Origin: Doris montereyensis
Lineage: Eukaryota; Mollusca; Gastropoda; Nudibranchia; Dorididae
Length of the DNA: 64,000 bases
Assembly (NCBI GenBank): GCA_037039925.1
Contig: JAXRKP010000063.1
Coordinates: 409,667-473,666, forward strand
Reading direction: 5' to 3'
The position numbers and the translations under genes were made by a program. The notes beneath the pieces were generated by a model. It did not search any database. It was not told where the DNA came from and saw only the letters and a program-made list of their open reading frames with translations. Of this stretch, positions 30,001 through 33,000 are shown one piece after another; position 1 is the first letter of the stretch, and every line of letters begins with the position of its first letter.

Positions 30001-33000
30001 ACAAACAAAAAACAATATATCGAATATAAGAATTTTCTCCTGATGGAAAACAAGACAAAAATGAGAGTATCAGTTTAATCAAGATGATAAATATATGTCA
30101 TATTATTATGGTCATAATTTTGGCTGAAGTAATGGAAAGAAAACTAGTGCTAAATGGCACTGTCATTGTAATTTATGTACAAAATAAACTTTAGTCTGTT
30201 AACTTCCTTAAATGTCTGAATTAAACCTCACAAATGCTAGTCTAAGGCGAAATATGACAATAAGTGACAACTCCACTAATAAAGACAGAACAAACACGTG
30301 GCGTTTCGGGTATAACCCTTCGTTAGACAACAAACGAGAAATATCTAAAATCTAGATCTAGATTTAAGCACTACCTCAGGCATCACACAATGTGATGTCA
30401 GAAAAAAACAGACAGGAGGAAGAAAGAAAGAAAGAGACAGTGATGATAAGAAACGTGATTAGAAGAGGATGTGAAGAATATAAAGTCGCGAGAATGGAAG
30501 GTTCAGATCTAGAATGAAATAAAAATATGAAAATAAGTAAGTGATAAAAGGTGAGAAGGAGACAGAGAGAGAAAAAAAGGTGCAGGGAAAAAAGAAAGGG
30601 AGAGAGACGTGTGAGTATGGGAAACAAGAACGAAAAGAGGATAACTATAAGACTAGATCTATATCTCACTGGGTCTAGAAAGAAGAAATGATAGAGACTG
30701 AATGAAAGGAAATATCAATCAAGGCAAAAATTTACACTAAAGGTGCGAAATGTATACAAATTACAAATGTATCGATGTAATAAGGGAACAGAGTGAACTA
30801 TCTCCTTCTCACCTTCTATCACTTACTTATTTTCATATTTTTATTTCATTCTAGATCTGAACTTTCCATTCTCGCACCTTTATATTCTTCACACCCCTTC
30901 TAATCACGTTTCTTATCATCACTGTCTTTTTCTTTCTTTCTTCCTCCTTTCTGTTTTTTCTTCTGACATCACATTGTGTGATACCTGATGTAGTGCTTAA
31001 ATCTAGATCTAGATTCTAGATATTTCTCGTTTGTTGTCTGATGAAGGGTTATACCCGAAACGTTACATGTTTGTTCTGTCTTTATTAGTGGAGTTGTCAT
31101 TTATTGTCATATTTCGCCTTTGACTTCACGCCACTGTGGCTCCTTCGTATTAAATGCTAGTCTGTAAGCTTTTAACAAAATACTAATAACACTTCTAGTT
31201 TCACATACATTGTATATGTAATAAGCAATAGGTGTACATTGAAGAACACCTTAAGCAAAAAATTTGATTTGCTAAAGATTTTGTTTCATGAAAAAGATAA
31301 ATTAAATTAATCTTACTTTGATATCATATCCAATGCCATGAGCACGGCACATCTGAAAGTACACACTGTAATGAACAACAGCCAGATTTGTGTGAAGAAG
31401 ACGGGTGCTGAGAACCGCATATCGACTATTGCTGGGAAAGGGCTGGGAAGAAAATTTTGTTCATAATGAGAATATAAAAGAGCATAAATTTTGAGAAATT
31501 GTAATAAAATAAACACATCAAGGGCTACGAATTAAATTTGAATTACTTATACAAGTTGTGTTGAGACAAACAAAAGGGAACATGTAAAGAATTTGTTTTT
31601 GAATTCATACATACATGCACAACAGAGAATTAGTGAAACACTTTCAAATATACTAAAAATGTAACAAATTTAATACCTTTTTAAAATTATACGATAGACT
31701 TACGTAACATGATGAAGCAAATAATAGCAGACATTTGAACACTTCTTTTCATCACAACAACTTTCTTCTTTCTGACAAATCATTGGTTGTCAAAAAACAT
31801 GAAGTTTGCTATGATATTAACAATGAAAAATGACCTGGTGTCACTTAACAATAACAAAACTGAACGTCTTGCATTCCTCATCAAAACTTTTGAAAGCAAA
31901 GGATCTTTTTTCTTTGTTTTCAGTACGCTCACATTTAACTTTATGTCATTTGTTTTATAACCAATAATATCCATCCTACTCCTAGTTAATAGTATTTCTG
32001 TTTTACTAGTACATATACATGCAGTTAGTAGTTGCAATCTATTTTAAATGCATCACTGGCAATCGTCATTCTCTAACCTCTTCCTCTTGACCAGCAAGCC
32101 TCCTACGACGAGGCTTCTGATCATCACTGGACAGTTCCACCTCAAACACATGAGTCTTGGATTGGAAAGACCCGTGAGTGACATATTCCAGTAGGTTATA
32201 CATGGCTAGGTGGTCACTGTAGTGGAGACACAGGTCTAGCACCCACAGCCGTTGATCCATCTAACATTGAAGGACAAAAATAGAAGAAAAAAAAACAAAT
32301 CAATCTTGAGAGATAAAATATTAGCTGCTCGGCACTAGCAAAGGTTTCACTGGTGTATTGAGAGGAAAGTGACAAAAGCACACTTTGATCGGGTACACAT
32401 ATAAGTAGAGTAAATGGCCTTACCAATTCTTCAAGTTTTACCTTTTAGCATTGATACTGTAAATGAAAAGGTTTGAAATGTGTTTCAATGTCTAAATTTG
32501 AAATTTTCTTCACTTTTTATAGCACACATCAATTTTTAAATATTTTTTTTAATGAAACAAGAATAATTTTATCCCATTTTGTCTTGTGCTTTGTTTTCCT
32601 TTCTTTCACTTTTTTTTAGTATAATTTCCCACACACTCCACTCCTGAGACTAAAAGAATACGATATTGTAACCTTTAAGGGGGGGGCACCTCCTGAAGTG
32701 ATTTTTATTTAGTTTAGGCTCTTGCCTTTAGTATGTACATGAGTAACTGTCAAAATACAGTCATCCTATATCATTGAAAAGTTTGTAGCGTCCTTGGTTA
32801 GCATAGAAATGGCCGCAATCTTGGATTTTAACTCAATTTTCAAAATCTATCTCCTCCCTTAGAATAAAATCACTCAAAATCTCTACAGATTGTCTTTTCC
32901 ATTCAATATCTAAAGAGCGGTGTCGGCAGAAGCCAGGTGACCTTGGTGTTGTCACATTTGACTATTAGCTGCCAATATACGGATTTTTACTGCCATCTTC

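Follow-up and report, generated by a model that had tools for sequence, protein, structure and literature searches.

How can two copies of one short retroelement, fused head to head in opposite orientations, come to share the target site duplication (TSD) of what appears to be a single insertion? The question is raised by positions 30232-31163 of the 64-kb window (the whole stretch of DNA that was analysed), where a minus-strand copy is fused head to head with a 5'-truncated plus-strand copy and the 3' ends of both are outermost. The 12-mer AAATGCTAGTCT occurs exactly twice in the window, both times on the plus strand, as the left (30232-30243) and the right (31152-31163) TSD; given the local base composition, the chance of encountering it at one given place is ~1.1e-7. 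Between the two lie arm A (30244-30797, minus strand), the longer copy, which has its 3' end at 30244 and terminates as ...CGCCTT against the TSD without a tail, and arm B (30798-31151, plus strand), the 5'-truncated copy, which meets the head of arm A at about 30797/30798 and carries a 31-bp tail (31121-31151, plus strand) beyond the point where arm A stops. Self-alignment of the window, a check proposed together with the original prediction for this locus, recovers the inverted arms as segments of 170, 66 and 99 nt that are 94-95% complementary, or, as one alignment of arm A with arm B, over 329 bp at 93.6%. Neither the target sequence nor a TSD was found at the internal junction (about 30797/30798), which is plain, unlike that of locus L004 discussed below. 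The original prediction had described a minus-strand copy joined to a plus-strand partial copy, with a 12-bp TSD once on each outer side and no duplication at the internal junction; all of this is borne out, and the single integration event that it proposed is supported by the lone outer TSD both here and in most other pairs.

The window holds two further copies of the same repeat: a more diverged solo copy at 727-1323 (plus strand), with the 10-bp TSD TAAATAAGTC at 717 and 1324 (unit 717-1333), and a 5'-truncated tailless copy at about 54279-54434 (minus strand). No inverted partner of either was found in the alignments made. At 7366-9080 and 37022-40444 there are open frames, on both strands, that resemble reverse transcriptase fragments of another retroelement, and at 17189-18380 there are exons of a TRMT1-like tRNA dimethyltransferase gene, whose nearest named matches (for 17189-18118) are from Bradybaena (70%), Bulinus (69%), Plakobranchus (67%) and Biomphalaria (66%) and point to a host that is probably a euthyneuran gastropod.

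The repeat, designated family C, is identified as the pLTR, or 3' end, of a Penelope-like element (PLE) with its own reverse transcriptase (RT) and endonuclease (EN), because it adjoins endonuclease sequence at L008 and at most of L041-L060 and flanks an RT + GIY-YIG frame at L062. These loci belong to the window's own genome (513 Mb, 3,500 contigs), which was searched by DNA; the search with the pair returned 3,730 candidates at first look and scored 40 of them, and since the query is itself a pair, this 40-locus set is enriched for pairs. In L008 the repeat continues into a GIY-YIG-like endonuclease sequence interrupted by stops and a frame change. Used as a query, this endonuclease fragment returned 521 candidates; among the 150 scored, the best match, pieces of its own source locus aside, is 67% identical, and in 18 of 20 fetched loci (L041-L060, with L041 and L048 as the exceptions) the repeat lies downstream of the endonuclease on the same strand. 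In L062 an RT/EN frame, open for 660 codons, is preceded and followed by the repeat, and the two repeats share 90.5% identity across 612 columns; in this copy the N-terminal part sits in another frame. Compared to Pfam, the L062 frame matches RVT_1 (E = 6.7e-6) and GIY-YIG (E = 0.0056), both below the curated cut-offs, and it has 2,324 homologs at E ≤ 1e-20, many labelled PF00078, PF01541 and PF26215, among them proteins named from Biomphalaria, Physella, Littorina and Arion; a PDB sequence search with the RT + EN frame gave no match. L062 has the RT and the GIY-YIG domain in one frame and the pLTR on both sides of it, as in endonuclease-containing PLEs, and the family also displays their optional 3' tail of ~30-40 bp (tailed and tailless ends are both common) and their head-to-head inverted pLTRs with a single TSD. 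A tRNA-type SINE or a MITE was considered and rejected, the repeat being joined to a PLE frame. The kinship with Penelope that had been suggested from the window is supported by this adjoining frame, and L062 provides the full PLE (RT plus GIY-YIG) with the same ends that had been sought; the accompanying notion of a small non-autonomous family is not supported, the sequence being the pLTR/3' end of an RT + endonuclease PLE, of which the window copies look like 5'-truncated products.

The pLTR also contains a motif with the core letters CTGANGA...GAAACGTC and one extra base ahead of stem II. We label it hammerhead-like, a presumed identity based on these core letters and on the printed RNA of the Poseidon element PAc from Anolis (Frangieh et al. 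2024, PMC11167929), which by our reading has the same core arrangement. In arm B the motif (31038-31064, plus strand) reads CTGATGA-A-GGG...CCC-GAAACGTT, while in arm A (30300-30326, minus strand) the core is altered to CTAACGA and GCC, as against CTGACGA and GTC in most copies. Rfam gave no hammerhead match at this motif even at E ≤ 1, and relaxed thresholds produced two weak matches elsewhere in the window and none at the pair. The presumed hammerhead cut lies 56 nt from one end and 87 nt from the other, tailed end; the published PAc figures (cut at +26, start at +111-118; PMC11167929) give about 85-92. At five loci (L063, L071, L072, L076, L080) direct repeats are found about 210-300 bp apart, in which one copy reads through its tail into the 5' portion of the coding sequence and from there returns to the pLTR, forming short tandem units each with a hammerhead-like motif.

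The family is abundant: a 28-mer taken from the repeat end matches 4,748 times when up to 3 mismatches are allowed, and its reversed control 0 times. Within the first 100 exact places, those less than 1.5 kb from a neighbour were counted by eye as 9 head-to-head, 0 tail-to-tail and 3 direct, and a second list, overlapping the first, gave 10, 1 and 3, also by eye; these pattern lists are free of the bias of the pair query and, consisting of exact matches only, represent younger copies. In the pair-query set, an inverted partner lies within 1.4 kb at 17 of the 40 loci; the 23 loci without such a partner comprise 13 tailed copies, 1 with a deleted tail and 9 tailless ones. There are also copies without an inverted stub in which the TSD lies close to the 5' end (L011, L027, L037) or follows a longer 5' part (L020, L025). 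The genome-wide search for family C, which had been proposed as a check, thus yielded further independent inverted pairs, most of them with a single outer TSD and with TSDs that differ from pair to pair. In a family of this abundance two independent insertions could come to lie side by side, or a later inversion could mimic such a pair, and L022, which has neither a tail nor a shared TSD, may be such a case. As an explanation of the window pair this is extremely improbable, given the lone outer TSD with none at the junction, the large excess of head-to-head over tail-to-tail neighbours, and two properties examined below, namely the one tail per pair and the polymorphisms shared between arms.

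The distribution of the tail was determined in 32 head-to-head pairs, 30 of them in a tail table together with the stub pairs L007 and L017. In 30 of the 32 (28 of the 30 in the table) the tail is present on exactly one outer end. The stub pairs conform to this pattern, the second arm being a 9-12 nt stub of the tailless type in L007 and a 16-18 nt stub, consisting only of tail, in L017, and so do L006, L021 and L065, in which the TSD is not trusted. The remaining two pairs are L022 and L075; in the latter one end carries a tail with an internal deletion, which the script scored as absent and whose remnant was read from the sequence. Of the 28 TSD-supported pairs, 27 fit, and L075 does so by its remnant; this set includes short or imperfect TSDs (L005, L033, L039, L040, L063, L064, L070, L073, L077) and, for L075, a low-complexity match. 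L067 was excluded because its flanks mark it as an inverted segmental duplicate of L066: the two lie about 22 kb apart on one contig (C72) and have both the pair and its flanks in common, in opposite orientation, a pattern suggestive of either inverted segmental duplication or an effect of assembly. Among 15 independent pairs from the pattern lists, chosen regardless of tails, 14 fit, plus L075; if tails were independent with even odds, at least 14 of 15 one-tailed pairs would be expected by chance with a probability of ~5e-4. Searches of the open-licence literature yielded neither a published count of exclusive tails nor a test of shared source.

These counts bear directly on the fold-back origin of the arms that the original prediction had offered, next to a template-switched product, and in which one cDNA, or an antisense RNA, primes itself and the second arm arises by copying the first. 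Self-priming from palindromic junctions has been suggested by Arkhipova et al. (2013, PMC3846280), and a fold-back would account for variants common to both arms. It also receives some support from L004, where a ~50-bp palindrome (about 2086-2192) is present at the head-to-head junction and a reversed repeat of one arm's 5' end precedes the second arm; this points to some local self-priming that may add to the junction. A copy, however, should end like its template, and the tail is on one arm only in 30 of 32 pairs. Because the arms end differently, one tailed and one not, a simple fold-back does not explain the pairs; the claim is not supported, and we regard it as improbable.

Whether the two arms of a pair have a common source was studied by two approaches. 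A ranking of arms by identity to other copies, in which only 1 of the 30 arms ranked had its partner as best match, was undecided, since old star-like copies would yield that result either way, and it was replaced by a test based on polymorphisms of the family. This test used 18 non-CpG sites with a minor allele ≥15% and 25 of the 32 pairs, 13 of which cover an informative site; L006, L021, L022 and L065 (TSD not trusted) and L007, L034 and L017 (second arm too short) were left out. The arms are discordant in 5 of 56 comparisons versus 21.9 expected with random partner copies, and 0 of 20,000 random draws gave 5 discordances or fewer; with the minor allele at ≥10%, 12 of 88 are discordant versus 31.3 expected, and 1 of 20,000 draws was as low (the sites are few and some lie within the same copies, so the draws are to be taken as a guide and not as an exact probability). 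Differences between arms number 203 in 3,341 sites; in 120 of them the allele involved occurs elsewhere no more than 2 times, in 67 it occurs 3-8 times, and in 16 it is common. Some arms are identical (L064 over 50 sites, L071 over 126, L079 over 37). The low discordance at polymorphic sites says that the arms do not come from unrelated RNAs and that they would derive from one RNA, or from RNAs of one locus.

The reading that we prefer, with a probability of roughly 0.7, is that the pair is one PLE insertion in which both strands of a staggered cut primed reverse transcription. The endonuclease of the element would make a staggered cut in the target, of 12 bp here, and the 3' ends of both target strands would become primers for reverse transcription on PLE RNA. 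One strand would start at site 1, after ...TTTCGCC(TT), to give the tailless arm, and the other at site 2, ~31 nt further downstream, after ...TTCGTATT, to give the tailed arm; the two cDNAs would then extend toward each other, mostly halting short of the RNA 5' end, and repair would join their heads, the target site being duplicated by gap filling. Two-site priming of both strands would produce the head-to-head order, the outermost 3' ends, the single TSD, the variable truncation and the one tail. What the analysis shows is the architecture, the single TSD, the tail on one arm, a source common to both arms and the connection with an RT + EN PLE, and independent pairs with differing TSDs also show the single outer TSD; the priming strand by strand, the order of events and the joining by repair are what we infer from them. 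In vitro, both strands are cut and extended by a PLE protein, which initiates at two neighbouring RNA sites separated by the length of the tail, with the counterpoint that top and bottom strand showed no difference in start site (PMC11167929). The solo copies argue against an obligate two-strand rule: there, either the second cDNA was lost or one strand alone was used.

Twin priming as in L1, in which one RNA is primed both at its 3' end and internally and an inverted 5' piece results, would likewise leave an inverted piece and a single TSD. Such priming yields adjacent pieces without overlap; here the two arms have their 3' end in common, with an overlap of up to about 300 bp, which makes twin priming barely credible. 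Within priming of both target strands, the preferred reading, the number of templates can be considered separately. Tentatively, and at well under even odds, integration may by rule be bidirectional on a single RNA, each strand using one of the two start sites once; a pair would then have one tail, not two, because each start site of the RNA is used once. If so, solo copies would be cases in which the second cDNA stayed short or was lost, the inverted stubs in L017 and L007 would be remnants of it, and the process would represent a two-primer, one-template form of target-primed reverse transcription. Also at well under even odds, the two strands may have been primed on separate sister RNAs of one locus in an asymmetric PLE protein dimer, each half of which would present a different start site. 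A dimer of the protein is predicted by AlphaFold2 (PMC11167929), the polymorphism test does not split one RNA from two RNAs of one locus, and, of the first set's 13 TSD-supported pairs, 7 carry the tail on the longer arm and 6 on the shorter one, so that neither site is tied to the longer product; against it, two RNAs from the same locus would be required every time.

These results can be considered in the light of what is known of related systems. The route of PLE integration and the frequent inversion of copies are left open in the accounts of PMC3846280 and PMC11167929. With thousands of short copies in one genome PLE integration becomes countable, and as the tail marks the start site that was used, each pair would record two initiation events. 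The counts speak for both-strand priming over simple fold-back, and they supply a prediction for an existing in vitro system.

The inverted-pair architecture itself is already known for Penelope. As described by Arkhipova et al. (2013, PMC3846280), the elements of Adineta vaga and other animals have head-to-head inverted pLTRs enclosed by one TSD of 8-10 bp and an optional 31-bp tail on one of the inverted pLTRs, the same architecture as here; those elements are mostly ORF-bearing and low in copy number, whereas the present ones are short pLTR-only pairs. That account favors self-priming on an antisense template, which the present counts do not; our addition to it consists of the counts of the tail rule and the test of arm source. 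Poseidon PAc resembles our family in its GIY-YIG and RT domains, in a core with GAAACGUC that is hammerhead in PAc and hammerhead-like here, in having a pair of start sites by which the tail is defined, and in a similar distance from cut to start; it was studied in vitro, and in the portions of that study drawn on here the two start sites are not linked to inverted genomic pairs (PMC11167929). Metazoan retrozymes (Cervera and de la Pena 2020, PMC7229834) are likewise short repeats with a hammerhead motif, to which the hammerhead-like motif would correspond here, and the direct repeats of about 210-300 bp noted above are a further likeness to them. Unlike retrozymes, in which the repeat is unattached to RT coding, the repeat studied here flanks an RT + EN frame and ends at PLE-type start sites, and for these reasons we class it with the PLEs and not as a retrozyme.
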